Shown one piece after another: positions 5,131 to 31,641 of a stretch of DNA of 32,956 nt (the stretch's first letter is position 1; every line of letters begins with the position of its first letter). Below the pieces are notes generated by a model. The model was not told the origin of the DNA. It ran no database searches and saw only the letters and a list, made by a program, of their open reading frames with translations. Position numbers and translations under genes: made by a program. The stretch lies in assembly GCA_030700065.1 (NCBI GenBank), contig JAUYKH010000009.1, positions 1 through 32,956 of the forward strand, given 5' to 3'. This DNA is from a bacterium. Its GTDB lineage: Bacteria; Patescibacteriota; Doudnabacteria; UBA920; 2-01-FULL-46-14.

Positions 5131-6348
5131 TTATTCATATCTTAACGCTTCAATGGGATTAAGTGATGCCGCTCGTCTTGCCGGGTAATAACCAAAGATA
5201 ATTCCGATTGCGGCTGATACACCAAAGGCCAGGAGTATCGTAGAAAAGGAGACACTCGTTGCTATCCCAGCAAAACTGGAAACAAGAATCGATAAAATCC
5301 ATCCGAGAGCAACGCCGATCCCTCCGCCAAGAAAGGTAAGCATGACTGCTTCGGCAAGAAACTGCATGGAAATATCTTTTTTCTTCGCGCCGATGGATTT
5401 GCGAAGCCCGATCTCCCGCGTTCGTTCGGTAACGGTGGTTAGCATCATATTCATAATCCCGATACCGCCCACGATCAAAGAGATACCGGCGACCGCTGCA
5501 AGAAAAATAGTGAAAGTATCCGTGACTTGCGTGAGCGTCCCCAATATATCCGCCTGCGAGATGATTGAAAAATCGGGATTCATCGGGTCAACGCGATGCA
5601 ATTGAGCAAGCAAGAAAGTCGCTTCTTCTTGAACGATGGGCATAAGATTTTTTTCGTAAACACTTATGGCAATAGTGGAGAGGTGCTCACCGCCGGCAAG
5701 GATTTTTTGCATGGTAGTTAAAGGAACAAAGAGTGTGTCGTCTGGATTAAAAAATCCCGCGCTACCTTTGGTTTGGGTCACGCCGATAACTTTAAAATTG
5801 AGCCGATTAATGCGGATGGTTTTGCCGACGGGATCATTGCCTTCCCCAAAAAGGTCTTGCGCTACTGTGGGACCAAGCACCGCGACTCTTGCAACGCTTC
5901 TGATGTTTGCGTCCGTGATAAAAGAACCGTCGGCCAAACCAATGTTGCGCGCCTGCTCATAATCCGGAAGAATTCCGATAACCGTAGTATTGGTGTTATT
6001 TCCTGAATAAACGACCTGAAAACGGCTTTGGCGTTCGGGCGAAATATATGCGACTCCAGAGATTTGCCGCAAAGCTTCAGCGTCGCTTGTAACAAGCGTC
6101 TGCCCCGTCCCTCTTCCTGAAGAGACGATGCCGCTACCCGGCTGGATAGTCCCGGGCATAACCGTTAAAAGATTTGAGCCGAGGCCCTCGATGCTCGCTG
6201 TAATCGTCCCCGATGCGCCCTGTCCAATGGAAACCATGGCGATAACCGAACCGATGCCGATGACAATGCCAAGAATCGTGAGGCCAGACCTCGCTTTGTT
6301 CGCCGAAAGGGCGGTGTATGTTTCTTGTAGAATATCTTGAACTTTCAT
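5131..6348 (-). CDS. MacB-like ABC transporter permease
   Basis: ARSGLTILGIVIGIGSVIAMVSIGQGA, TERTREIGLRKSIGAKKKDI, C-terminal PARRAASLNPIEALRYE: FtsX/MacB family hallmarks. Confidence 0.93.
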   Translation of the reverse strand: MKVQDILQETYTALSANKARSGLTILGIVIGIGSVIAMVSIGQGASGTITASIEGLGSNLLTVMPGTIQPGSGIVSSGRGTGQTLVTSDAEALRQISGVAYISPERQSRFQVVYSGNNTNTTVIGILPDYEQARNIGLADGSFITDANIRSVARVAVLGPTVAQDLFGEGNDPVGKTIRINRLNFKVIGVTQTKGSAGFFNPDDTLFVPLTTMQKILAGGEHLSTIAISVYEKNLMPIVQEEATFLLAQLHRVDPMNPDFSIISQADILGTLTQVTDTFTIFLAAVAGISLIVGGIGIMNMMLTTVTERTREIGLRKSIGAKKKDISMQFLAEAVMLTFLGGGIGVALGWILSILVSSFAGIATSVSFSTILLAFGVSAAIGIIFGYYPARRAASLNPIEALRYE

Positions 6349-7067
6349 TTTGCGTTGTGATTATGATTATTGATGACGCGTCGATTTTTTACTTTACCAT
6401 CTTCCACGATGTCCCCATCGCGGATACGAATGACGCGTTCGGCGTGTTCAGCGACATACGGCTCGTGGGTGATCAAAACAATCGTTCGGCCTTGTTCTTG
6501 GTGAAGCCGCTGAAAAGTCTCTAGCACCATTTCGCCCGTCTTTGTGTCCAAGTTTCCTGTCGGCTCGTCAGCAAGAATCAGCGTCGGGTTGTTGACGAGG
6601 GCACGGGCAATGGCGACTCGTTGCATCATTCCTCCGGAAAGTTGGTTCGAATAATGATTCCAAAAATTTTCCGGAAATGCCGATCCTTGCAAGGCCTCTT
6701 TTGCCCGATTTTCTCTTTCTTCTTTTGAGACGCCGGCATAGACCAAGGGAAGCATTACATTACGAAGCACGGTTGCGCGGGGGAGAAGATTATATGCTTG
6801 AAACACAAAACCGATTTTTTGCACACGGATATCGGCCAGTTCGTCATCGGTGAGTTTCGACACATCTTTATCGTCAAGAAGGTATTCTCCGCTTGTTGGC
6901 GTATCCAAACATCCGATGATATGCATCAGCGTTGATTTGCCCGAACCAGAAGGCCCCATAATGGCCACGAATTCTCCTTTATTAATGATAAATGAGACGT
7001 CTTTTAACGCCTCCGTCTCTATCTCCCCACTTTTGTATGTTTTGCTGATACGTTTGCATTCAATCAT
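6345..7067 (-). CDS. MacB/LolD-type ABC transporter ATP-binding protein
   Basis: Walker [10 protein letters not shown], signature [15 protein letters not shown], Walker [13 protein letters not shown]. Confidence 0.95.
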
Positions 7068-7072
7068 AGTAG

Positions 7073-8902
7073 TTAACGGCCAAATCCGCCTCCGCTGCGG
7101 GAACCGCCACCGCCAGAAAGGCCGGGAATACGCAAACCTCCTTGCTGAGATTGAGTTTGCGTTTGTGTTGTGTTGGGCTGGATAGTTCTGGTAACGACTA
7201 TTTCGCCCTCTTGAAGTCCGCTCCTAACCTCGGTGAATTCGTCATTAGAAAAACCAATCTCTACCGCCCTGCGGCTCGGCGGACTTTCCAGCACAACGCC
7301 CGCCGCGCTGTTTGCGTTCCCCGTATTCGCGCCAGCGACAGCCGAACCTTCCGGAATTTCGACATAATTGGTCTGGGCCTCCTGCTTCAACGCGGAATTA
7401 GGGACAAGCAGCACGTCGGGTCTGGCCTCGATGACAATGGCGGCGGAGACGCTCATGCCCGGCTTGACCCGTTCCTCCTGCGTATCAAACACGATCTTCA
7501 CGACATAAGTGACGACTCCCTGCGAAACTGTCCCAACGGCGTCAATCTCTGCGACAGAACCAGTTATCGTAAGATCAGGAATCGCGTCAAAAGCAAGCGT
7601 GGCTTTCTGGCCGGCCTTGATTTTGGCGACATCAACTTCGTTGAGCGCCACCTCGGCTATCTTTTGTTCGGTTATCAGCGTAGCGACGGCGGTGCCTGCC
7701 GACGCGGAATCTCCCTTTTTGGCATTCACTTTGGCGATAACTCCGCCAAATGGCGCGCGGACATAGTGATCAGAGAGAGCCTGTCTTGCGGTGACGAGCG
7801 CGTCCTCTCTTTGTTGGATGGTTATTTTCTTGGCGCGAATATCAAGATCGTCCGGCCCTTCTTTTGTTTTTGCGAGAGACAGCTCGCGTTCTTTGATAGT
7901 AGTGTCCGCGTCTACGACAGCTTCCCGCGAATCTTTAAGAGAGCGTTGTATGGAAAGCAAGCTCACCACTATACTATTGGTCTTGCCGGTGTATGAGCTG
8001 ATGTTGGACTGGTGGGTCGAGACGGTTGAGGGGATAGTGAGATGACGCAACTCCATCGCATCTTGAACAAAATCAATATAGTTATCCGTTGTCTTAATCG
8101 CATCTGCAATAAGTTGGCCTGTGTTGTATGTTTCTGATATCAGGGCCTCAACGACTTCTTTATCAGAACTTCGTGAGGCGGCCTTGTAAGAGTCAAAATT
8201 CGCAGTATAGGCGATACGCGCTTTGTTGTACGCGGTATAAACATCATCTCGATACCTAATAGCTTTATCGCGTTGTTCGATAGGAGTTTGATTCACATAC
8301 CAAGTGATATTGTCTCCGAACACAGAACGAGGATCGATTGTATTGGCAAATAACAAATTTTCTAATCCGGCCATAATGCCGGGGAGATCAAGAAACGCGC
8401 TTGAAACGGAATTGAAGCCGTCCTCGTATGCTTTTTTGATGTTATCCTCCGCTTTTTGCTTTGACTTCTTGGCTTGATCCAGAGAATTTTCGGCCTGAAG
8501 CAGGGTGAGTTCATCGAGCGGCTTAAGCATTTTGTCCAGCTCCAATTTAGAGGTTTCAAGTGCGGTTTCGGCATCGCGTACAGCTCGTTCGGCATCACGC
8601 GAATCAATAGCTGCCAAAATCGCGCCAGCACCGACCTCTTGTCCTAACTTTGCGTACACGGCGGTTATTTCTCCGCTTGCTTTTGGTTTGACATCAACTT
8701 GGTTGGAAGCCGACACTTGGCCGCTTCCAGAAATGGAGACGATAAGAGTGCCCTTTTGAACTTGCGCGGTGGCGTAGCGAATTGCGCCATCGTTGCTGAA
8801 TATCTTTCCGTAACCGAAATAACCAATGCCGACAATTAAAATTAGGGCGATACCTGCGGTAAATTTACGCTTTATCAATTGTGCGAATAGTTTTGAAATC
8901 AT
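7073..8902 (-). CDS. MacA/HlyD-type periplasmic adaptor (membrane fusion protein)
   Basis: VSGSGQVSASNQVDVKPKASGEITAVYAKLGQEVGAGAILAAIDSRD lipoyl half-motif, long coiled coil, APFGGVIAKVNAKKGDSASAGT second half; just upstream of the ABC genes. Confidence 0.92.
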   Translation of the reverse strand: MISKLFAQLIKRKFTAGIALILIVGIGYFGYGKIFSNDGAIRYATAQVQKGTLIVSISGSGQVSASNQVDVKPKASGEITAVYAKLGQEVGAGAILAAIDSRDAERAVRDAETALETSKLELDKMLKPLDELTLLQAENSLDQAKKSKQKAEDNIKKAYEDGFNSVSSAFLDLPGIMAGLENLLFANTIDPRSVFGDNITWYVNQTPIEQRDKAIRYRDDVYTAYNKARIAYTANFDSYKAASRSSDKEVVEALISETYNTGQLIADAIKTTDNYIDFVQDAMELRHLTIPSTVSTHQSNISSYTGKTNSIVVSLLSIQRSLKDSREAVVDADTTIKERELSLAKTKEGPDDLDIRAKKITIQQREDALVTARQALSDHYVRAPFGGVIAKVNAKKGDSASAGTAVATLITEQKIAEVALNEVDVAKIKAGQKATLAFDAIPDLTITGSVAEIDAVGTVSQGVVTYVVKIVFDTQEERVKPGMSVSAAIVIEARPDVLLVPNSALKQEAQTNYVEIPEGSAVAGANTGNANSAAGVVLESPPSRRAVEIGFSNDEFTEVRSGLQEGEIVVTRTIQPNTTQTQTQSQQGGLRIPGLSGGGGSRSGGGFGR

Positions 8903-9932: not shown

Positions 9933-10490
9933 TTATTCCGTGAGGATTTTTTTGAGTTGAATCAACGCTCGGCGATGGCGCGATGTTATGGTGTGAAGCG
10001 GCTCTCCAAGAGATTCGGCGATTTCTCGAAAGTTGAAATGGTCGTTATAACGGAGAAAGAGAACCGTGCGATATTTTGGAGACAGCTTTTCCATCGCCGA
10101 ATTGAGTATATGCGCCATACCGGCTTTTTCTAAAAGCTCTTGGGGGAGAGGAGAAGGATCAGCAAGTGTCTCGGTTATCATATTTTCACCTTCCTCGTTT
10201 TCAAATTCAGAGAATGGGATAGTTTTTTTCTTTTTTAGAAAATCAATCGCGGTATTTTTAGCAATCGAAAAAATCCAAGTTTTGAAGCTCTTGTTTTGGT
10301 CGAATCTTTTGATATGGCGCCATATCTTTACGAACGCCTCTTGCGTCACATCTTCCGCATCCTGTCCGCCGCCTACATATCTGTAAGTAAAGCTGTAGAT
10401 TGGCTTTAAGTAGCGGCCGTAGAGAATCTCGAGCGATTTTTCGTCGCCGGCGAGATAATTAGCGATAAGTTGCGAATCAGGGCGATTCAT
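9933..10490 (-). CDS. ECF-type RNA polymerase sigma-70 factor
   Basis: YRYVGGGQDAEDVTQEAFVKIWRHIKRFDQNKSFKTWIFSIAKNTAIDFLKKKK plus region 4 HNFREIAESLGEPLHTITSRHRRALIQLK. Confidence 0.93.
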   Translation of the reverse strand: MNRPDSQLIANYLAGDEKSLEILYGRYLKPIYSFTYRYVGGGQDAEDVTQEAFVKIWRHIKRFDQNKSFKTWIFSIAKNTAIDFLKKKKTIPFSEFENEEGENMITETLADPSPLPQELLEKAGMAHILNSAMEKLSPKYRTVLFLRYNDHFNFREIAESLGEPLHTITSRHRRALIQLKKILTE

Positions 10491-12867: not shown

Positions 12868-13263
12868 CTATTTCCCGTTCTGGGCGAGTACGTCTTTTAC
12901 CTTATTCAAAATTTCTTCAGTGGTAAAATATGCCTTGACGAGATAGCCCTGGATCTTGAGATCCTGGGCTTTGAGAATGTCTTTGTTGCTCCAAAGGTTG
13001 CTCAAAATAATCACAGGCGTATTGGCAATCTTCGCATCCGAATTCTTTCGGATGTTTTTGAGCACGTCAAATCCATCCATCTCCGGCATGATCAAATCCA
13101 AAAGCACGAGATCAGGTTTGCCCTTGAGCCAAATCTCGAGCGCCTGCTTCCCGTCGTAAGCGGCCATCACATCAAAACCGGCTGATGACAGCTTCCTCAC
13201 CACAATCTCGCTCATCATCGCCTCATCCTCGGCGACTAGAATTTTGGTTTGTTTCTCGGCCAT
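12868..13263 (-). CDS. CheY-like response regulator (receiver domain only)
   Basis: KILVAEDEAMMSEIVVRKLSSAGFDV...PDLVLLDLIMPEMDGFDVL...TPVIILSNL...GYLVKAYFT; start placed at MAEKQTK. Confidence 0.9.
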   Translation of the reverse strand: MAEKQTKILVAEDEAMMSEIVVRKLSSAGFDVMAAYDGKQALEIWLKGKPDLVLLDLIMPEMDGFDVLKNIRKNSDAKIANTPVIILSNLWSNKDILKAQDLKIQGYLVKAYFTTEEILNKVKDVLAQNGK

Positions 13264-13316: not shown

Positions 13317-13345
13317 TTGATTTTTTGCACAAATTTAGGTATAAT
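13317..13345 (+). promoter_or_regulatory. sigma70-type promoter of the plus-strand operon
   Basis: TTGATT (13317-13322), 17-nt spacer, TATAAT (13340-13345). Confidence 0.65.
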
Positions 13346-13352
13346 AAAAACT

Positions 13353-13403
13353 ATGAAGTTTACGTCTCCGAAACAAAAATATATCACTGGTTCAGCGAGG
13401 TAA
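13353..13403 (+). CDS. possible 16-aa leader peptide
   Basis: ATG...TAA reads MKFTSPKQKYITGSAR*; ATG is 7 nt after the -10; the next gene starts (GTG) at 13417. Confidence 0.35.
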   Translation: MKFTSPKQKYITGSAR

Positions 13404-13416
13404 GGAAAACAAAAAA

Positions 13417-14499
13417 GTGTTTAATTACGCAAAATTGCCTGAATTCGACAATCATGAGACGGTTATTTCTTTATCAGACGGCCAAACCGGATTGAGGGGC
13501 TTTATTGCCATCCACAACACGAACCTTGGACCGGCTCTCGGGGGAACTCGAATCACCTCTTTCTATCCAAACGAAGAAGCGGCCATCAAAGATGCCCTTC
13601 GGCTGTCGCGAGCAATGACGTATAAATGTGCAATAGCAGATCTGCCGTTTGGGGGCGGCAAAGGCGTAATCATCGCTGATCCTGAAGACCCGCAATTGAA
13701 TGATTTGCTTCAACAATACGCCCGAAAGGTTTCCACTTTGGAAGGGCAATTCTACACAGGTGAGGATGTCGGTTTGACGGAAGAAAATGTGCAGTTCATG
13801 TTGAAATTCAGTCCCTACTTCATAGGGAAAACGGGGTTGGCGGGAGATCCTTCCCGCTACGCAGCGTACAGCACGTTCCTCGCCATACAAACCGCTTTGG
13901 AGTTTTTGGGTAAGGCTGGTTTGGCCGGGAAAAAATTCGTTATCAAAGGTCTTGGAAAAACCGGCAGTGAATTGGCTCGGTTGCTCATTGAAGCAAAATC
14001 AAAAGTGATTGCTTCCGACGCAGACGAATCAAAGATAAGGGAGTTCAAAAGCAAATATCCCAATACCGAATTCGTTCCAGTCAAAAATATCGAAGAGGTC
14101 AGAGCTGACGTGTTTTGCCCTTGCTCTTTGGGTAACGACATCACCGAAGGAAACATAGGTAGGGTAAAATTCTCCGTCATTGCCGGTACGGCGAATAATC
14201 AGCTAGAAGCAGACGAAATTGGTGACAAACTTTTTAATTCCGGAATTTTGTATGTTCCAGATTATGTTTCAAATGCAGGCGGACTGATCAATGTTGCGGA
14301 TGAGCTATTGCCGGGGGGATATAATCGGGACCGGGTTATGGACGGCATCAATAGAATTCAGCTAACCTTGCGCGAAATTCTGGTACGGTCGCAATTATTG
14401 GCGATCAGTCCGAATAAAATTGCCGATGCCATGGCGCGAAGCGTATTTGATAAAGTTTCGCTGCCCCTACAAAATAAAAATGGCAATACCACCTTTTGA
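13417..14499 (+). CDS. Glu/Leu/Phe/Val dehydrogenase family (leucine dehydrogenase-like)
   Basis: GPALGGTRI, MTYKCAIADLPFGGGKGVI, GKKFVIKGLGKTGSELARLL, YVPDYVSNAGGLINVADE. Confidence 0.92.
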   Translation: MFNYAKLPEFDNHETVISLSDGQTGLRGFIAIHNTNLGPALGGTRITSFYPNEEAAIKDALRLSRAMTYKCAIADLPFGGGKGVIIADPEDPQLNDLLQQYARKVSTLEGQFYTGEDVGLTEENVQFMLKFSPYFIGKTGLAGDPSRYAAYSTFLAIQTALEFLGKAGLAGKKFVIKGLGKTGSELARLLIEAKSKVIASDADESKIREFKSKYPNTEFVPVKNIEEVRADVFCPCSLGNDITEGNIGRVKFSVIAGTANNQLEADEIGDKLFNSGILYVPDYVSNAGGLINVADELLPGGYNRDRVMDGINRIQLTLREILVRSQLLAISPNKIADAMARSVFDKVSLPLQNKNGNTTF

Positions 14500-15973
14500 T
14501 AAGCTGAACGAAAAGCAATTGTTGGCTTCGTATTCAACGAAATCAGAGGCTTTTTGGATGCAGCAACAGGAAATCAGATCGCTAAAATTATTTCAAGAAA
14601 TGGTTCACAAAGTTCCCGCTTATAAGAAATTCCTCGGCCAACATGGAATTCGCCCAGGGTCTGTAAAAACCGCGGCTTGGTTGGCTGAAATACCTGCTAT
14701 AAACAAAAAAAATTATTTCTCCCAATTTCCCGTTTCTGAAACATTTTGGCCAAAATCAAAGCAGGAGCCCTTGGTCGTAACTTCGACCTCCGGCTCCACG
14801 GGCCAACCCGCATATTTTCTACGCAATGAAAAAATCGATTGGCAATACTCCGTTTTGGCAGAATTTTTTTTAAAGAATGGCCCCAAGGGATCGACCCTGC
14901 TTATCAATTGTTTTGGCATGGGGGTTTGGATCGGAGGACTCATCACCTATCAGGCTTTCCGTTATGCCGCATTGCGGGGTTATCCGTTGAGTATTGTTAC
15001 GCCTGGAATCAATAAAACCGAAATTTTTCATTGTCTGGGGAGGTTGGCGCCAAACTTTGAAAATATTATTTTCGCGGGATATCCCCCCTTCATTAAAGAT
15101 GTGATCGATGAAGCGCTTGAGGAAAAAATTAATTTATCCAAACTTAAAATTCGACTACTTTTCGCCGCCGAGAGTTTTACGGAAACTTTTCGCGATTACG
15201 TCGCCCGAAAAGCGAACGTCCGCAATATTTATCTCGATACTTTAAATATTTACGGCAGCGCCGAATTGGGGGCAATGGCATTTGAAACCCCCGGCTCAAT
15301 CTTTATCAGAAGACAATCCTTAAAACACCCCCGAATCTACGAGCAATTATTCATTAAAGGGCGCCTTCCAACACTCGCGCAGTACAATCCGATGTTTGTC
15401 AGTTTTGAAGAAAAAAATGGCGAGATTCTAATTAATGCGGATGGGGCAATGCCCATCTTCAAATATAGCATCGGCGATCGCGGCGGAACCTTAACGCTAG
15501 GCAAAATAGAAAAAATATTCGCAGGTGAAGGAATCAATCTCCGAAGGTTGGTTGCAAAAAACCATATTAGTTTCCAAAATCTGCCCTTTGTTTATATCTA
15601 TGAACGGGCCGATTTTTCCACTAAACTATATGGCGCAACCATATATCCCGAACCAATCAAAGAGGTGGCACAGCGCGGGCCACTCGCCGAATATCTCACA
15701 GGCAAATTCACAATGCAGACTAAATTCAATCGAAAACAAAATCAAACTTTGGAAATAAATTTTGAACTAAAAAGAGAAACGAAACCCACAAAAAAACTGC
15801 GATTCGCGGTACAAAAGGCAGTGATCGCGGAACTGGTCAAAAAAAACGCGGAGTACAAAAACAACTATTCAGTGGTTCCCCATAAAGTACTGCCCAAAAT
15901 AGTGCTTTGGCCGCATAGCAGCACACTTTATTTCAAACCCGGCATAAAACAGAAATGGATAAAAAAGGCATGA
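14480..15973 (+). CDS. PaaK/CoF390-synthetase-like adenylate-forming enzyme
   Basis: VVTSTSGSTGQPAYFLRN P-loop-like motif, LLFAAESFTETFRDYVARKANV, DTLNIYGSAELGAMAFE, YSIGDRGG; start at MAIPPFDKLN. Confidence 0.85.
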   Translation: MAIPPFDKLNEKQLLASYSTKSEAFWMQQQEIRSLKLFQEMVHKVPAYKKFLGQHGIRPGSVKTAAWLAEIPAINKKNYFSQFPVSETFWPKSKQEPLVVTSTSGSTGQPAYFLRNEKIDWQYSVLAEFFLKNGPKGSTLLINCFGMGVWIGGLITYQAFRYAALRGYPLSIVTPGINKTEIFHCLGRLAPNFENIIFAGYPPFIKDVIDEALEEKINLSKLKIRLLFAAESFTETFRDYVARKANVRNIYLDTLNIYGSAELGAMAFETPGSIFIRRQSLKHPRIYEQLFIKGRLPTLAQYNPMFVSFEEKNGEILINADGAMPIFKYSIGDRGGTLTLGKIEKIFAGEGINLRRLVAKNHISFQNLPFVYIYERADFSTKLYGATIYPEPIKEVAQRGPLAEYLTGKFTMQTKFNRKQNQTLEINFELKRETKPTKKLRFAVQKAVIAELVKKNAEYKNNYSVVPHKVLPKIVLWPHSSTLYFKPGIKQKWIKKA

Positions 15974-17163
15974 CAAAATTGGAACGTGCGTTAAAAAGAA
16001 AGGCTTCCGTAAAAATCGGGTTTCGCCCCAGAATCTTTGACCTTTCATCGGACAAACAACGCAAAACGCTCCTCGGCCTGTTTTCCAAAAATTCGATAAG
16101 GCAAGTTATTGATGATTACGAGGAACAATTGCGTGAATTATTCGCAATAGAAAACCCGTCCAGGGTCTATCTCGACAACTTTGATCAAGAATTTCAATCC
16201 TATCTGGCGCAATTGAAAAAACGAAGCCCACTTTATCAGCAAGGACGGTGGATTTACTATCCCTGGCTCCTTACGGTTGTTCATCTTTTGAAGGATCGCG
16301 ACTTCCAGAGAGTCCGAACAGCCAGAAACCGAAATTTAATCAACGAAGGTGAGCAAAAAAACTTCTACAATGCTGTCGTGGGAATCGGCGGCCTCAGCGT
16401 CGGCAACAGCGTGACTCTGGCCATTGTTTTGCAGGGCGGGGCCAGCCACATCCGGATCGCTGACCACGATCGTTTGGCTCTTTCTAATCTCAATCGAATC
16501 CGTGCAGGAGTAGAAAATTTGGGGCAACAGAAAGCAGAGATAACTGCCAAGCAAATCTACGCCTTAAATCCCTACGCAAAGATTGAAATTTTCCCCGATG
16601 GGCTAAACACCAAAAATGTAAAAAAATTCTTCGCCGGGCCGCCAAAACTGGATATAGTGGTCGATGAATTGGACAATATCGCCGTTAAATTTTTAATCCG
16701 CGAACAGGCCAAACGCAATAAGATCGCCGTGGTGATGGGGGCAGACAACGGGGATAACGCGGTGATAGACATTGAGAGGTATGATCTGAATCCAAAAACT
16801 AAATTTTTCCATGGTCGGCTTGGAAACGTTTCTTACAAACAACTCTCGCGGTTGGATAAATTCGGGATAGGGAAGACGATCACCAAATATATCGGCCCCG
16901 AAAATGTGACAGAGCGGATGCAAAAATCACTGTTGGAAATGGGAAAAACAATCGTTTCGTGGCCGCAATTGGGCGGCGCGGCCTTAATTAATGGCTCAGC
17001 CGTGGCCTACTGCGTGAGAAAAATTTTAAATAACCAACCACTGGAACGCAATCGTTCTTTGATTTCTCTAGACGAAAAACTCACTCCAGATTATTATTCC
17101 CCAGCGCAAAGAAGCAAACGAAAAAAAGTCGCAAAGAATTTTAAAAAAATATTTGGCCTATGA
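15955..17163 (+). CDS. E1/ThiF-like protein (resembles ThiF half of Rv1355c-family proteins)
   Basis: AVVGIGGLSVGNSVTLAIVLQGGASHIRIADHDRLALSNLNRIRAGVENLGQQKAEITAKQI; DIERYDLNPKTKFFHGRLG. Confidence 0.85.
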   Translation: MDKKGMTKLERALKRKASVKIGFRPRIFDLSSDKQRKTLLGLFSKNSIRQVIDDYEEQLRELFAIENPSRVYLDNFDQEFQSYLAQLKKRSPLYQQGRWIYYPWLLTVVHLLKDRDFQRVRTARNRNLINEGEQKNFYNAVVGIGGLSVGNSVTLAIVLQGGASHIRIADHDRLALSNLNRIRAGVENLGQQKAEITAKQIYALNPYAKIEIFPDGLNTKNVKKFFAGPPKLDIVVDELDNIAVKFLIREQAKRNKIAVVMGADNGDNAVIDIERYDLNPKTKFFHGRLGNVSYKQLSRLDKFGIGKTITKYIGPENVTERMQKSLLEMGKTIVSWPQLGGAALINGSAVAYCVRKILNNQPLERNRSLISLDEKLTPDYYSPAQRSKRKKVAKNFKKIFGL

Positions 17164-18215
17164 CAGACGCAATTCGCAAAATATTAGAAATAGCCGTTCA
17201 TGCTCCATCAGGCGAAAACACGCAACCATGGCGGTTTGCTGCCAAAGGCAATCAAATTTATCAATACAACATCCCCGAAAGGGATAATTCTTTATACAAT
17301 TTCGATCAAAAGGGCTCGTTGACGGCCCATGGGACAGTCATAGAAAATATTGTAATCGCCTCTCCCAAATTCGGGTATAAGGCATCTGTAACATTGTTTC
17401 CTGACAGAAATAACCAAAATTTGATCGCAATGCTAACTCTGTACCCAACAACCGAACAGGAAGACCCTCTTTATTCTTATATCCTAAAAAGGAACACCAA
17501 TAGAAAACCATATAAGCCAATTTCGCTCACCAAGGAGCAGCTCGATTATCTGGCAAATTTATCGAAAATCGTGAGCAATGGAGAAATTCGTTTTGTATCC
17601 GATCCACAAAAAATGCAAATCATCGCTGAGGCTGGAAGTATCAATGAACGGGTGATGTTTAACAATCGTCTTTTGCATGGTTTCTTCTTTTCTCATCTTA
17701 ACTGGACCCAAGAAGAAGAAGAAACCAAGAGAACCGGCTTTTACATTAAAACACTTGAATTGCCGCCGCCTGCCCAAATAGGGATGAAGCTATTCAAATA
17801 CTGGCCGGTCATGAAATCTTTGAATTTCCTAGGTTTATCAAAATTAATTGCTATGGGTAATGCCAAAACCTATGCCTCCTCTTCCGCTATGGGGGCGGTT
17901 ATCATGCAAAACGAAAATCTCGGGGATTTTGTCAACGCGGGCAGAATATTGCAACGCATCTGGCTCGAGGCAACAAAAATGGGCCTAAGCATGCAGCCTA
18001 TTACAGGAGTATTATTTTTTGCACAAAAGCTGAAGGCAGGCGGGGCGGACGGATTTGCCAATTATCAAGTATCTCTCATACAAGGGGCTTACAAAAAAAT
18101 AAAAGAGGCGTATGGTATAAATGAGAAAAAAGTTATTGTTGTTTTTCGGATGGGTTACGGGGGCGATCCTAGTGCTCACTCTTTGAAACTTCCGCCAACT
18201 ATAATCGAGGAATAA
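17160..18215 (+). CDS. nitroreductase-like (Acg-type) flavoprotein
   Basis: IAVHAPSGENTQPWRF, YILKRNTNRKPYKPISL, AGRILQRIWLEATKMGLSMQPITG, VVFRMGYGGDP. Confidence 0.82.
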   Translation: MTDAIRKILEIAVHAPSGENTQPWRFAAKGNQIYQYNIPERDNSLYNFDQKGSLTAHGTVIENIVIASPKFGYKASVTLFPDRNNQNLIAMLTLYPTTEQEDPLYSYILKRNTNRKPYKPISLTKEQLDYLANLSKIVSNGEIRFVSDPQKMQIIAEAGSINERVMFNNRLLHGFFFSHLNWTQEEEETKRTGFYIKTLELPPPAQIGMKLFKYWPVMKSLNFLGLSKLIAMGNAKTYASSSAMGAVIMQNENLGDFVNAGRILQRIWLEATKMGLSMQPITGVLFFAQKLKAGGADGFANYQVSLIQGAYKKIKEAYGINEKKVIVVFRMGYGGDPSAHSLKLPPTIIEE

Positions 18216-18224
18216 GCGTTTGCT

Positions 18225-19898
18225 ATGACGGGTTTAATAAATTTTGATCTCCTTTCGGTCGGTATTGCGATAGCCAGCATAGGCATCCTGGGATTTGTTG
18301 TCTATTTTAACAACCCTAACAGCGATACAAACAAAACTTTTCTTGCGTTTGCAGCGGCAGCTATTTTTTGGAGTCTGGCGAATTATCTAAGCTACCAATT
18401 CGCCTCCCCTAGTTTGGTGTTGTGGCTGCTGCGGTTGGGCATCTTTTTTGCCGTATGGTATTGCTTCTATCTATTCCGGCTATTTTTCGTATTTCCAGAC
18501 GTACAATCCGCACTCCCGAAGAAACATAGATTTCTGGTTTTGCCCGCGGTCATTTTGACGTCACTGATTACATTAACGCCCCTCGTGTTTCCAAAAATTA
18601 AGGAAATGACCGGGCAGGGGAGCGTTTCGATCGTGTCGCCAGGACCAGGAATTTTCTTATTTGGCGGCGTGGTTATCGGTTTGATAATTGCCGCCATATT
18701 CTCCCTATTTAAAAAAATGAAAGCCGCGTCGGGACTGGGCAAAACACAGTTTAAATATGTGTTGGCTGGGGTGATCATAACTTTTACATTGCACATTACT
18801 TTCAATTTTATCCTGCCTGCCTTTTTCGACATCGTGCGCTTTATCCCAATGGGGGCAGTCTTTACTTTTCCGCTCGTGGCCTTCACAGCTTACGCTATTT
18901 TCAAACATCACCTTCTAAACGTCAAAGTCGTCGCCACAGAAATCCTAACGTTTATCCTTGCGGTCGTCACCCTCCTCGAGGTGATACTTTCGAATGATCT
19001 GGCAATCCTCATCTTTAGGGCCAGCGTATTTTTACTGGTCCTAAGTTTCGGGATTTTACTTATTAAAAGTGTCCTCAAGGAGGTGGAACAACGGGAAGAG
19101 CTACAGTTCTTATCCGCGCAACTCAAAAGGGCCAACATCAAACTCCAGGAGCTCGACCAGGCCCGGGCGGATTTCATTACCATGGCCTCTCACCAGCTGC
19201 GCACTCCCCCGTCCACGCTCAAATGGTATTTGGCGGCGATTCTTGCGGGTGATTACGGCCAGCCGAGTCCGGAGATAAAAACCGCTCTGCTGAAGATGCG
19301 GCTCTCAAACAATGCCATGATCTCTTTAATTGACGACATGCTCAATGCCTCGCGCATCGAACGGGGCAAGATTGAATTCAATTTTGAACCAACCGATGTT
19401 TTGGAAATTACCCAGTTCACCGTGGAACAGCTCCGCGCCCTGGCCGAGCCGAAACATCTCAAGCTTGCTTTTGTCAAACCGAAAACCGGACTGCCGAAAA
19501 TCATGGCTGACAAAGAAAAACTCCGCCAAGTCATCAACAACCTGATTGACAATGCCATCAAATACACCAAAAAGGGCGCCATCACGGTGAAACTGGAAAA
19601 AACCGGCAATAATATTGCTATCAAAGTCGCGGACACGGGCAAGGGCATTGCCAAAGAGGACCAAAAAAATCTTTTTGAAAAATACGCGCGCGCCCAGGAC
19701 TCGAGCAAATATACCGCGGGCCTGGGCCTCGGGCTATATCTGGCCAAGGTCATCGTGCAGCAGCACAAAGGCAAAATCTGGGCCGAAAGCGAAGGAGTTG
19801 ACCGCGGCTCGACATTCATCATCAGCCTGCCTATCAAAAGCGGCATCAAGGCTACGGCGACCTTTGATCTCGCGAAAGCAAATGGACAATCCAAATAA
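18225..19898 (+). CDS. histidine kinase with 7TM-type membrane sensor region
   Basis: About nine hydrophobic N-terminal segments; H-box ASHQLRTPPSTLKWYL, N-box RQVINNLIDNAIKYTKKG, G-boxes VADTGKGIAKEDQ and GLGLGLYLAKVIV. Confidence 0.93.
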   Translation: MTGLINFDLLSVGIAIASIGILGFVVYFNNPNSDTNKTFLAFAAAAIFWSLANYLSYQFASPSLVLWLLRLGIFFAVWYCFYLFRLFFVFPDVQSALPKKHRFLVLPAVILTSLITLTPLVFPKIKEMTGQGSVSIVSPGPGIFLFGGVVIGLIIAAIFSLFKKMKAASGLGKTQFKYVLAGVIITFTLHITFNFILPAFFDIVRFIPMGAVFTFPLVAFTAYAIFKHHLLNVKVVATEILTFILAVVTLLEVILSNDLAILIFRASVFLLVLSFGILLIKSVLKEVEQREELQFLSAQLKRANIKLQELDQARADFITMASHQLRTPPSTLKWYLAAILAGDYGQPSPEIKTALLKMRLSNNAMISLIDDMLNASRIERGKIEFNFEPTDVLEITQFTVEQLRALAEPKHLKLAFVKPKTGLPKIMADKEKLRQVINNLIDNAIKYTKKGAITVKLEKTGNNIAIKVADTGKGIAKEDQKNLFEKYARAQDSSKYTAGLGLGLYLAKVIVQQHKGKIWAESEGVDRGSTFIISLPIKSGIKATATFDLAKANGQSK

Positions 19899-20679
19899 GT
19901 TTCTAAAATTCGCAATGAGTACCGCGCGAAAAACAGGCCAAAAAATGGCCTACTATTTTCGTAAAAAAGAACCGGTGATTTCCGGCGCGCCGTCGGGTAT
20001 CAAAACCTTTTACGATGACATTGCCGATGACATGATCAAAAAACTTATCGAAAAACACTTCCCCACCCATTCTTATCTTACCGAAGAAACGGGAATGGTG
20101 GATAAAAAATCCGACTATCTATGGATCATCGATCCTTTGGATGGAACGAGCAATTTCGTAAATCACAATCCCTTCTTTTCAATCTCCATCGCCTTGTGGC
20201 ACAAAGGCGAACCACTCTTGGGCGTGATCGAAGTGCCAATTCTCCAGGAAACGTTCACGGCCTTTCGCGGCCACGGAGCTTTCCATTACGACGGGGGGCA
20301 AAAAAAACGAGCCCGAGTGTCCGCCATTTCCAGTTTGTCAAACTCCTATCTGATCTTCTGCGAAGGCGGCGAGAGAAACAAATCCCGGATAGTGAAAATC
20401 TTTCGCGATCTTTATCCGCGCACCCGGGAAATGCGAAAACTTGGCTCCGCCGCCATCGAGCTCTCCTGGGTTGCTTTGGGCCGAAGCGAGGCCTATGTGT
20501 CAACCCAAATCCACTTGTGGGACATCGCGGCCGGGGTACTGTTTGTCAAAGAGGCGGGCGGACACCTGCTCCACTTTGACGGTACGCCTTACCAATGGGC
20601 AGAATTTCTGAAATCAAAAAAATTTGATCTGGCCGCGACAAACAGCAAGATCAAACTGCCCCTTTTGCGCGGGGTTTAA
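19882..20679 (+). CDS. inositol monophosphatase family protein
   Basis: LTEETG, WIIDPLDGTSNFVN, LWDIAAGVLFVKEAGG; start at MDNPNKFLKF. Confidence 0.9.
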   Translation: MDNPNKFLKFAMSTARKTGQKMAYYFRKKEPVISGAPSGIKTFYDDIADDMIKKLIEKHFPTHSYLTEETGMVDKKSDYLWIIDPLDGTSNFVNHNPFFSISIALWHKGEPLLGVIEVPILQETFTAFRGHGAFHYDGGQKKRARVSAISSLSNSYLIFCEGGERNKSRIVKIFRDLYPRTREMRKLGSAAIELSWVALGRSEAYVSTQIHLWDIAAGVLFVKEAGGHLLHFDGTPYQWAEFLKSKKFDLAATNSKIKLPLLRGV

Positions 20680-21045: not shown

Positions 21046-23673
21046 ATGAACTCTGCTCAATCAGAAACCAAAATAAAAATTTCAGCCTTGCCCGCCTGGC
21101 ACGCCCTGGACATTGCCCGGACGATCAGGGATTTGAAAACCAATCCCGACAAAGGGCTGTCCGAGAAGGATATTTTGCAAAGACAACAGGTCTGGGGCAA
21201 AAACGAACTGCCGAAAGGGAAACGCACGACAGCCCTGCAGATGTTCGTGAGGCAATTCAAAAGCCCGCTCGTATATATACTGCTGGTCGCCGCGGTTCTA
21301 ACCTGGTGGATCGGCGAATATGCCGACATGATCGTCATCCTGGTAGTGGTACTCGCGAACGCGATAGTCGGTTTGTTTCAGGAGTATCGGGCCAATAAAA
21401 TTTTCGAAAAGCTCAAGGAAGCGATCCGCGTCAACGCGCTCGTGATCCGTGGCGACAAACTCACGGAAATTGACGCGGCCGAACTGGTGCCGGGGGATTT
21501 GATATTGCTCAAAGGGGGGAACAAAGTTCCCGCCGACGCGAGACTGGTTACGGCCTCGAACCTCGAAACAAATGAGGCCCTGCTCACCGGCGAATCGCGG
21601 GGCGCAAAGAAACAGGTCGAGACGGTTGACGCAAAGGCCATGATCGGCGATCGGAAAGACATGGTATTTATGGGAACCGTCGTGGAAAGAGGCGAGGGCC
21701 GCGCACTGGTCGCGGAAATCGGCGCGCGCACGGAAATCGGAAAAATTTCGGTTTTGACCCAAAACGCGGAAGAGGAGCCCTCCCCCCTTCAGCTGCGAAT
21801 GAAAAAATTGGGCCAGTTTTTGAGCGAATTGTTTCTGGTCATCTCTCTGGCAATATTCATTCTCGGGCTGGTCGAAGGCGATGACGTGGCCGAGATGATC
21901 AAAACGACTGTGGCGGTCGCCGTGGCGGCGATCCCCGAAGGATTGCCGGCCGCGATATCAATTATTCTTGCCGTGTCGAGCCAAAAAATCCTCAACCGCA
22001 AAGGCCTGGTGAGAAAATTGGTGGCCGCTGAAACATTGGGCTCCACCTCCGTGATCTGCACGGATAAAACCGGCACCCTGACCTACGGCCAAATGAAGGT
22101 GGAAAAAATCATCGGGGCCGACGAGCGGGAAATCATGCTGTCCCTCGCCCTAGCCAACGAAGCAATCATTGAAGAAAAGGACGGAAAAACAGTAAAAGGC
22201 GAGGCTACGGACAAAGCGAAATTGGAAAAATTTTTGGAAAAGGGCGATTTGCGCGCTGTTCTGCGCGACACGCCGCGCCTCGCTCTACTGCCTTTTGACG
22301 AGAATAGAAAATATCTGGCCTCCTTCCACCAAGACCAGGGTAGTCTTCGTATCTGGGCCAATGGCGCTCCGGAAACAATCATCTCCAAAAGCAATTTAAC
22401 GGAGATCCAAAAGGGCGAAATCCGCAACACTTACGAAAATTATGCCAAACAAGGTTACCGGTTGATAGCCGCGGCGACAAAAACAGAAATTTTTCCCGCG
22501 AACGAATTCCAATCAGACATCGAATCAATGGTCAACCGGGTCTCCGGTCTGACCTATCTGGGGTTGGTTGCCATCCGTGATCCGATCCGCGAAGACGTCA
22601 AGCAAACCATGGCTGACACGAGAAAAGCCGGAATCAAGGTCCTAATGGTTACCGGGGACCACATTTTGACCGCCAAAGCTATCGGGCTCGAGCTTGGGTT
22701 TTCCATTTCTGAAGGAGCCGTTATTCTGGGGGAAGAGCTGGACAGACTCTCTGATAAAGAACTGCTCCGGCGGATCAAAAATCTTGAAATCATCGCGCGG
22801 GTCACGCCGGCGCACAAGATGCGGATTATCGATGCCTGGCAAAAATTGGGCGCCGTGGTCGCCATGACCGGCGACGGCGTGAATGATGCCCCCGCGCTCA
22901 AAGCGGCGGATATCGGCATAGCCGTAGGAACCGGAACGGACGTGAGCAAAGAAGCCTCCGACCTGGTCCTCCTGGACGACGGTTTCAGCACGATCACGGC
23001 GGCTATTTCCGAAGGGCGGACCGGGTTTGCCAATATTCGCAAATCCACTCTCACGGTAATGTCCAATGCTTTTACCGAAATAATTCTTATTGCTTCGACT
23101 TTGATCTTTCATACGCCTTTTCCGATTACCGCCATCCAAATCCTCTGGGTAAATTTGGCGGAGGATTCCCTTCCTGTTCTGGCCATGGCGTTTGAACCCG
23201 CGGAAAAGGAGATTATGAAAAGCAAACCCACCTCGCCAAAAGAACCCATTCTGGACAAAGAAAGCAAATTTCTGATCTTCGCCGTAAGCATAGTGAGTGA
23301 CCTGACTTTGGTCGGGATTTTCCTCTATCTGCTTAAAGGGCTTGGCTGGGATCTGATCAAAATCCAGTCGTTCATTTTCGTGGCCACAGCGACTCCGACC
23401 CTTCTGAATGTGTTTGCTTTTAAATCCCTAAGGACCCCTCTGTATAAAATTAATATTTTTAACAACTGGTACCTTGTCGGGGCGGTTGTGTTCGGGCTTA
23501 CCCTGATCCTGGCCGCCGTATACGTCCCCTTCTTTAACGAATTCCTGAAAACCGTTCCGCTAGGGTTCGGCCCCGCCCTGGTCTGTTTCGCAATTTTCCC
23601 ATTGTTCAAGCTCATTCTAGTTGAACTCGTAAAATGGCGATTTAGAATCAATTCCAATTCCAATCAGGCGTGA
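21046..23673 (+). CDS. cation-transporting P-type ATPase (P2-type, PacL-like)
   Basis: LLTGESRGAKK, PEGLPAAISI, CTDKTGTLTYGQM, VMVTGDHILTAKAIG, AMTGDGVNDAPALKAADIGIAVG. Confidence 0.95.
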   Translation: MNSAQSETKIKISALPAWHALDIARTIRDLKTNPDKGLSEKDILQRQQVWGKNELPKGKRTTALQMFVRQFKSPLVYILLVAAVLTWWIGEYADMIVILVVVLANAIVGLFQEYRANKIFEKLKEAIRVNALVIRGDKLTEIDAAELVPGDLILLKGGNKVPADARLVTASNLETNEALLTGESRGAKKQVETVDAKAMIGDRKDMVFMGTVVERGEGRALVAEIGARTEIGKISVLTQNAEEEPSPLQLRMKKLGQFLSELFLVISLAIFILGLVEGDDVAEMIKTTVAVAVAAIPEGLPAAISIILAVSSQKILNRKGLVRKLVAAETLGSTSVICTDKTGTLTYGQMKVEKIIGADEREIMLSLALANEAIIEEKDGKTVKGEATDKAKLEKFLEKGDLRAVLRDTPRLALLPFDENRKYLASFHQDQGSLRIWANGAPETIISKSNLTEIQKGEIRNTYENYAKQGYRLIAAATKTEIFPANEFQSDIESMVNRVSGLTYLGLVAIRDPIREDVKQTMADTRKAGIKVLMVTGDHILTAKAIGLELGFSISEGAVILGEELDRLSDKELLRRIKNLEIIARVTPAHKMRIIDAWQKLGAVVAMTGDGVNDAPALKAADIGIAVGTGTDVSKEASDLVLLDDGFSTITAAISEGRTGFANIRKSTLTVMSNAFTEIILIASTLIFHTPFPITAIQILWVNLAEDSLPVLAMAFEPAEKEIMKSKPTSPKEPILDKESKFLIFAVSIVSDLTLVGIFLYLLKGLGWDLIKIQSFIFVATATPTLLNVFAFKSLRTPLYKINIFNNWYLVGAVVFGLTLILAAVYVPFFNEFLKTVPLGFGPALVCFAIFPLFKLILVELVKWRFRINSNSNQA

Positions 23674-31110: not shown

Positions 31111-31641
31111 TTATTTTAACCCAAATACCCGCTTAAGCAGGGGTTCGCCATCAATCTCGCTCACCGTTAGATACCGAAAATATTTACGCAAATTCCATTC
31201 CTTCAAAAGCTGGTCCAGCTCCCCCGTCACTGGATACGGCGCAATATAGACACTTTCTTGCAGGGCGTAAAATCCGAGGGCGCGAAGCTCATTTCGAAGA
31301 TAATGCCGCCATTTGCTGATTGTCTCGGGTATATCGAAGACAATTACCCGCCAATGCCTGTCCCATTTTTTCATTTTTAAACGTTTGAGGTTGAGATATC
31401 GCACCGCTCGCAATTTACCCTTGGGCGTAAGATGAAAAAATGATTGATTATTTTTCTCCTTTTTTTGTACATAGCCCGAACGTTTAAGATTGTAGAGCTT
31501 CAAAAATATATTGCGATGATCCCAGGGAATTTCTTTTTTCATGTACATGGCCGTAAAATCGTAAAGGGACAAAGCCCCCGCTTCCCGCATAACATTTAAA
31601 ACCCTCAAACTCTCTTCATTTAGTTTTCTGCCTCTTTTCAT
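31111..31641 (-). CDS. PaaX-like regulator with Cas2-fold-like C-terminal domain
   Basis: N-terminal winged-helix-like region (KKEKNNQSFFHLTPKGKLRAVRYL) then WRVIVFDIPETISKWRHYLRNELRALGFYALQESVYIAPYP. Confidence 0.8.
   Translation of the reverse strand: MKRGRKLNEESLRVLNVMREAGALSLYDFTAMYMKKEIPWDHRNIFLKLYNLKRSGYVQKKEKNNQSFFHLTPKGKLRAVRYLNLKRLKMKKWDRHWRVIVFDIPETISKWRHYLRNELRALGFYALQESVYIAPYPVTGELDQLLKEWNLRKYFRYLTVSEIDGEPLLKRVFGLK

Follow-up and report, generated by a model that had tools for sequence, protein, structure and literature searches.

In the known oxazolone pathways of bacteria, an amino acid is acylated by a dedicated N-acyltransferase (PMC12856293, PMC10404671). In Mycobacterium tuberculosis and its relatives, the pathway is encoded by TrzAS (Rv1356c-Rv1355c), and in 2025 TrzS (Rv1355c) was reported to cyclise N-acyl-tryptophan with ATP and then, using O2, to desaturate the cyclised product to an N-acyl oxazolone; this N-acyl tryptazolone was seen directly once acid quenching was avoided (PMC12856293). 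TyzB/TyzC and OxzB perform the same chemistry on tyrosine and phenylalanine derivatives (PMC10404671). The describing papers leave the role of bacterial oxazolones unresolved; their authors suspect signalling and report no receptor. The operon considered here lies on contig JAUYKH010000009.1 (C6) of a Doudnabacteria genome in the Patescibacteria, an assembly of 798,033 bases that is 93% complete; the whole contig, 32,956 nucleotides (nt), was analysed and is called the window. The operon encodes an amino acid dehydrogenase, a PaaK-type ligase, an E1/ThiF-type adenylating enzyme, a nitroreductase-fold flavoprotein and a sensor histidine kinase with a seven-transmembrane (7TM) domain. It is proposed, at roughly even odds (a probability of about 0.5), to direct both the making of a small molecule of the acyl-oxazolone (azlactone) type and its detection, through a dedicated sensor kinase and a CheY-like regulator. 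The predicted synthesis half is well supported by homology.

The E1 protein (15955-17163, + strand) and the nitroreductase (17160-18215, +) allow an oxazolone-type chemistry to be named for the operon with fair confidence. The E1 protein, the putative oxazolone cyclase, aligns nearly full-length with positions 10-351 of the fusion represented by NCBIfam NF005901, the Rv1355c family (324 bits, E=2e-96), with the next-best family at E=1e-17. The nitroreductase, of the Acg/FDO type (NF011424, E=9e-67) and the candidate desaturase, matches positions 375-713, the C-terminal half of the same fusion (E=5e-54). Each protein scores below the curated cut-off of 476 bits, which was set for the whole fusion. 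The two adjacent genes are collinear with the two halves of TrzS; cyclase and desaturase are usually two genes here and a single fusion in TrzAS, but in one relative, locus L048, E1 and nitroreductase are also fused. The TyzACB and OxzAB pathways likewise have a cyclase and a flavin desaturase, separate or fused, acting on N-acyl aromatic amino acids (PMC10404671).

Across the 380 genomes sampled from the phylum, 46 loci (the window's included) have an E1 protein that is alignable outside the ThiF core. When these were aligned with Rv1355c-family proteins from plasmids, the nucleotide-site residues were invariant in all 46 Patescibacteria sequences, among them D240 of the window protein, which aligns with an Asp of the Rv1355c-family proteins and, equated by motif, is the probable counterpart of TrzS D217. 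No column of the 46-sequence alignment has more than 10 Cys, and without a conserved Cys a thioester mechanism of the ubiquitin type is not expected. The nitroreductase keeps the motif APSGxNxQPW, with 24 invariant columns in 19 sequences. By homology, the pair is a predicted oxazolone cyclase-desaturase of the Rv1355c/TrzS type, a kind already described, so the label "undescribed" that the first-pass annotation attached to the cluster does not apply to these two enzymes. The same annotation had compared the nitroreductase with the azoline dehydrogenases of thiazole/oxazole-modified microcin (TOMM) pathways; since both proteins match Rv1355c/TrzS, oxazolone synthesis is the right comparison.

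All operon genes lie on one strand, with overlaps of 20 nt (dehydrogenase/ligase), 19 nt (ligase/E1) and 4 nt (E1/nitroreductase), a gap of 9 nt between nitroreductase and kinase, and a 17-nt overlap between the kinase and an inositol-monophosphatase-family gene. This arrangement, as well as a CheY-like single-domain response regulator divergent from the operon (12868-13263, - strand; PF00072, E=5e-24), had been recorded in the first-pass annotation, and both are present in the sequence. Pfam scores are above the curated cut-offs for the dehydrogenase, E1, nitroreductase, kinase and receiver.

The operon is real and widespread in the phylum, with the gene set kept in about one in eight sampled relatives. 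Genes were called in the DNA around the other 45 E1 loci, and the uninterrupted same-strand run around each E1 gene was scored. These runs contain a PaaK-like ligase in 38 loci, a histidine kinase in 37, a nitroreductase in 31, a dehydrogenase in 15 and an aromatic ammonia-lyase in eight, and a receiver gene lies near the run in 16; because several runs end at contig ends, the counts are minimum values. Given that the window genome has only four HisKA matches in total, a histidine kinase in so many runs is far above chance. Ligase, E1, nitroreductase and kinase are thus conserved as a group across the phylum, and linkage to the kinase is not peculiar to this genome. The dehydrogenase, which had been taken as a fixed member, instead occupies an exchangeable first slot. 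In some loci, an extra methyltransferase or alpha/beta hydrolase gene lies between E1/nitroreductase and kinase, and at L068 (3631-5532) nitroreductase and alpha/beta hydrolase form one protein of 633 residues. A more distant E1 (G026:C12:77596-79900, about 30% identity over the core) also adjoins a PaaK-like ligase, which suggests a wider ligase-E1 partnership beyond these loci.

One departure from the known pathways is the missing ACYLTRANSFERASE, the dedicated acyltransferase for which no counterpart was found here. In the TyzACB and OxzAB pathways, the acyl group comes from fatty acyl-CoA (coenzyme A) through an acyltransferase with a FeeM/LuxI-like fold (PMC10404671), and TrzA takes this part in TrzAS. 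The window operon has no GNAT/FeeM-type N-acyltransferase beside the cyclase, and its genome has no match to FeeM or Acetyltransf_5 (PF21926, PF13444), models that a TrzA-like protein could escape. Measured against OxzAB, TyzACB and TrzAS, the operon therefore has the putative cyclase and desaturase and lacks a recognisable N-acyltransferase; in that position it has a PaaK-like ligase, accompanied by a dehydrogenase or lyase. It is for this reason that the ligase is proposed to perform the N-acylation. Two Streptomyces plasmids have a related ThiF gene, which adjoins a GNAT gene on one of them and a beta-ketoacyl-acyl carrier protein synthase gene on the other (L078 6917-8715, L079 6170-9084).

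The ligase (14480-15973, +) has no Pfam match, and its NCBIfam matches are weak (best TIGR02155, E=3e-12), with a score against the PaaK model of 46 bits, far below the 646-bit cut-off. Its AlphaFold model (predicted local distance difference test score, pLDDT, 90.8) finds PaaK1 as the best Foldseek match (2y27, E=6e-23, TM-score by target 0.78), together with a Bacteroides acyl-CoA ligase; NatL2 (6siy, E=4e-18), AjiA1 and ClxA follow. S104, G105, G108, D333 and K490 are invariant in 40 sequences, and the SGSTG loop and the C-terminal K490 are conserved. To judge from the model, the protein has the adenylate-forming fold and the catalytic motifs of PaaK aryl-CoA ligases. NatL2, from nataxazole synthesis, belongs to the PaaK family and forms an ester from two acids without CoA (PMC7204872); its substrates are hydroxybenzoates, whereas use of an amine by the window ligase is a proposal.

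The first gene (13417-14499, +) encodes an ELFV-family dehydrogenase resembling tryptophan and leucine dehydrogenases (PF02812, E=2e-23; NF035922 ScyB, E=4e-81, below the cut-off; PDB 5b37, E=3e-68), with the TYK, GGGK and NAGG motifs kept. In relatives, the gene ahead of the ligase is often such a dehydrogenase or an aromatic ammonia-lyase of the 4-methylideneimidazole-5-one type. These lyases score best with the flexirubin tyrosine ammonia-lyase model (FlxA), below its cut-off, and in the lyase of L039 NQD occupies the position of QED in the matched histidine-ammonia-lyase-type chain. The two partner types divide the ligase tree with a single change (support 99), compared with a mean of 6.9 changes in shuffled data and none of 500 shuffles as low; the E1 tree requires three changes and mixes partner types inside a supported clade. 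Even within one genus the partner varies (dehydrogenase in G140, lyase in G329), and at L040 (6322-8865) dehydrogenase and ligase form one protein of 847 residues. Close homologues of the dehydrogenase (E<1e-56) occur in 17 genomes, in 16 of which they lie beside ligase and E1. Two ligases of the dehydrogenase-type clade (L054, L068) are instead adjoined by an aminotransferase-family gene. The most economical interpretation is that the ligase activates an acid produced by the first-slot enzyme. In flexirubin synthesis too, an aromatic ammonia-lyase (FlxA) is found with a PaaK-type ligase (FlxY), the combination seen in the relatives that carry a lyase; the window ligase matches FlxY weakly (E=5e-5). 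In that pathway the acid goes into an aryl polyene pigment, and no E1 or sensor kinase is known to take part.

The sensor histidine kinase (18225-19898, +) has an N-terminal 7TM domain, with HisKA_7TM, HisKA and HATPase_c all above cut-off. It has the H-box SHQLRTP, and the receiver retains the phospho-site motif LLDLIMPEMDGF and the lysine motif LVKAYFT, so that the catalytic motifs of both are retained and the locus holds the parts of a two-component system: a histidine kinase with phospho-acceptor and ATPase domains, and a receiver. A CheY-like regulator of the same kind adjoins the operon in related loci. In the AlphaFold model (pLDDT 81.5) the first 280 residues are long helices, and Foldseek returned kinase cores only, with nothing informative for the membrane domain. 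Among 26 loci, divergence of the membrane domain tracks that of E1 with the kinase domain controlled (partial Mantel r=0.46, p=5e-4; r=0.43 with log distances and two controls), and the kinase domain tracks E1 weakly (r=0.15, p=0.05); these Mantel tests leave shared ancestry in. This pattern is compatible with a kinase that senses the cyclised product and is no proof of one. From it and from the conserved linkage, we infer that the kinase senses the product. TrzAS has been reported only with neighboring cyclic di-GMP genes (PMC12856293), and TyzACB and OxzAB likewise differ from the window in its kinase and receiver. Literature searches on Patescibacteria and oxazolones, or on ThiF, nitroreductase and kinase together, returned nothing relevant; as far as the searched literature shows, oxazolone-type enzymes linked to a dedicated sensor kinase are unreported.

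A pathway of five steps can be put forward. The dehydrogenase, or the aromatic ammonia-lyase in relatives, would convert an amino acid to a 2-oxo acid or an arylacrylic acid; the PaaK-like ligase would adenylate this acid and couple it to a second amino acid, in place of an N-acyltransferase; the E1-like enzyme would adenylate the carboxylate of the N-acyl amino acid, whereupon the oxazolone ring would close; the flavin nitroreductase would introduce the alpha,beta double bond; and the 7TM kinase would detect the product and phosphorylate the divergent CheY-like regulator. The third and fourth steps draw on homology to characterised enzymes and the first two on gene fusion and co-divergence; the evidence for the fifth consists of conserved linkage and co-divergence. 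The first-pass annotation's central idea, an amino-acid-derived molecule sensed by the co-encoded kinase, is partly supported: it withstands both refuting conditions stated with it, with ligase, E1, nitroreductase and kinase jointly conserved and the kinase linked to them in other genomes too, and what falls away is the TOMM comparison and the fixed dehydrogenase.

Several observations weigh against this proposal. There is no known product, and enzyme assays from this phylum were not found. The best fold matches of the ligase are CoA ligases; its product could be a CoA thioester, in which case an acyltransferase that escaped recognition would act elsewhere. Identity between the nitroreductase and the Rv1355c-family nitroreductase domain is only about 20%, and a considerable fraction of loci have a shorter nitroreductase type in its place. 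The desaturases known of this type depend on O2, of which many Patescibacteria probably have little available. Restricted to the 17 loci whose nitroreductase is of the long type, the correlation between membrane domain and E1 falls to r=0.25 (p=0.04), and to r=0.19 (p=0.10) with the nitroreductase also controlled. Among the 26 loci, membrane-domain divergence has no link to ligase divergence once E1 is controlled; since the membrane domain varies independently of ligase type, a sensor of the product would have to recognise its ring or its amino acid side. Moreover, NatL2, the nearest PaaK-type enzyme that works without CoA, forms an ester and not an amide (PMC7204872).

The alternative that survives best, and that has an appreciable though minor chance of being correct, retains an oxazolone or N-acyl dehydro-amino acid as the product and lets the kinase sense some other cue (redox state, aromatic acids or membrane stress), controlling only expression of the operon. 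The general HisKA_7TM architecture is shared by almost all operon kinases inspected, most of the longer ones among them, and in some a GAF domain is added; together with the independence of the membrane domain from ligase type, this would suit a general sensor. Sub-inhibitory antibiotics induce oxazolone production in proteobacteria (PMC12856293), which makes stress regulation plausible. Speaking for a product sensor are the linkage of kinase and enzymes across many families, in 37 of the 45 loci, and the divergence of the membrane domain, which follows E1 more closely than it follows the protein's own kinase domain.

It is rather unlikely that E1 and nitroreductase make another amino-acid-derived compound, such as a dehydrodipeptide, a diketopiperazine or an N-acyl dehydro-amino acid, with the oxazolone a reactive intermediate or not formed. 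The clusters for stieleriacine, kyonggic acid and thalassotalic acid do have ThiF and nitroreductase genes with dehydro-tyrosine products, and the oxazolone was not observed (PMC12479983); the methyltransferase or alpha/beta hydrolase of some loci could also alkylate or open an azlactone. Against this, the oxazolone was detected directly for TrzS, the closest characterised homologue, when acid quench was avoided (PMC12856293).

A ubiquitin-like or anti-phage system, in which E1 would activate a protein C-terminus, is highly improbable and was rejected as a defence-system assignment, given that matches to PADLOC E1-E2 models are weak (<=34 bits) beside the 324 bits of the Rv1355c family model, that the 46 E1 proteins have no conserved Cys, and that E2, JAB and ubiquitin-like genes are absent from the operon. 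A TOMM-like (azoline/azole) peptide pathway can be dismissed with similar assurance: TOMM clusters also hold nitroreductase-fold and E1-like proteins, but both proteins match the Rv1355c family instead, no YcaO domain occurs among the operon proteins (the genome outside the operon was not searched for YcaO), and the overlapping or nearly touching genes leave no room between them for a precursor peptide, all in keeping with the earlier remark that this is not a classical TOMM cluster.

Some neighboring features should be mentioned. A promoter-like site (TTGATT-17-TATAAT, 13317-13345, +; 10/12 consensus matches) is present upstream of the first gene, as had been noted, and is the best of 13 detected; shuffled sequences predict 12.0 such sites, and because the count is no higher than this the promoter scan carries no evidential weight. 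The inositol-monophosphatase-family gene (19882-20679, +), the last in the annotated range 13317-20679, was not found at the relatives' loci and was rejected as an operon member. This gene and an opposite-strand rhodanese gene separate the kinase from a P-type cation ATPase gene (21046-23673) in the window; in two same-family relatives, such an ATPase gene directly overlaps the end of the kinase gene (L003 6730-9357, L051 12968-15643), and it may belong to the operon's regulon. The window also contains MacB-type permease, ATPase and HlyD membrane-fusion genes (5131-8902), a possible exporter, as well as a Sigma-70 region 2/4 protein of extracytoplasmic function (ECF) size (9933-10490) and a protein with a PaaX central (Cas2-like) domain (31111-31641). 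At L056, L065, L070 and L072, the operon lies downstream of tyrosyl- and arginyl-tRNA-synthetase-type genes and upstream of bactofilin and diacylglycerol-kinase-like genes, with a VKOR-like gene in three of the four; the tyrosyl-tRNA synthetase neighbor may hint at the amino acid used.

Acyl-homoserine lactone and CAI-1 quorum sensing likewise encode a small-molecule synthase with its receptor, which for CAI-1 is a membrane sensor kinase, and here a receptor-like gene is conserved beside the synthase in 37/45 loci. The chemistry differs, and there is no evidence here of export, diffusion or density dependence. That Patescibacteria possess a previously unknown class of cell-cell or self-signalling, with azlactone/oxazolone autoinducers made without an acyltransferase, exchangeable amino-acid-derived acyl groups and dedicated 7TM histidine kinases, is a tentative extension, well short of probable.

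The operon nonetheless offers a testable candidate for an oxazolone receptor, given that oxazolone-type enzymes occur with a sensor kinase across many Patescibacteria. It also suggests that N-acyl amino acids could be formed by a new route, in which a PaaK-type ligase is supplied by amino acid deamination. Only four HisKA matches occur in the genome, and this kinase accounts for one of them, which suggests that even very small genomes keep a dedicated synthesis-and-sensing circuit. If true, an oxazolone autoinducer class would suggest a function for the mycobacterial and proteobacterial oxazolones as well.

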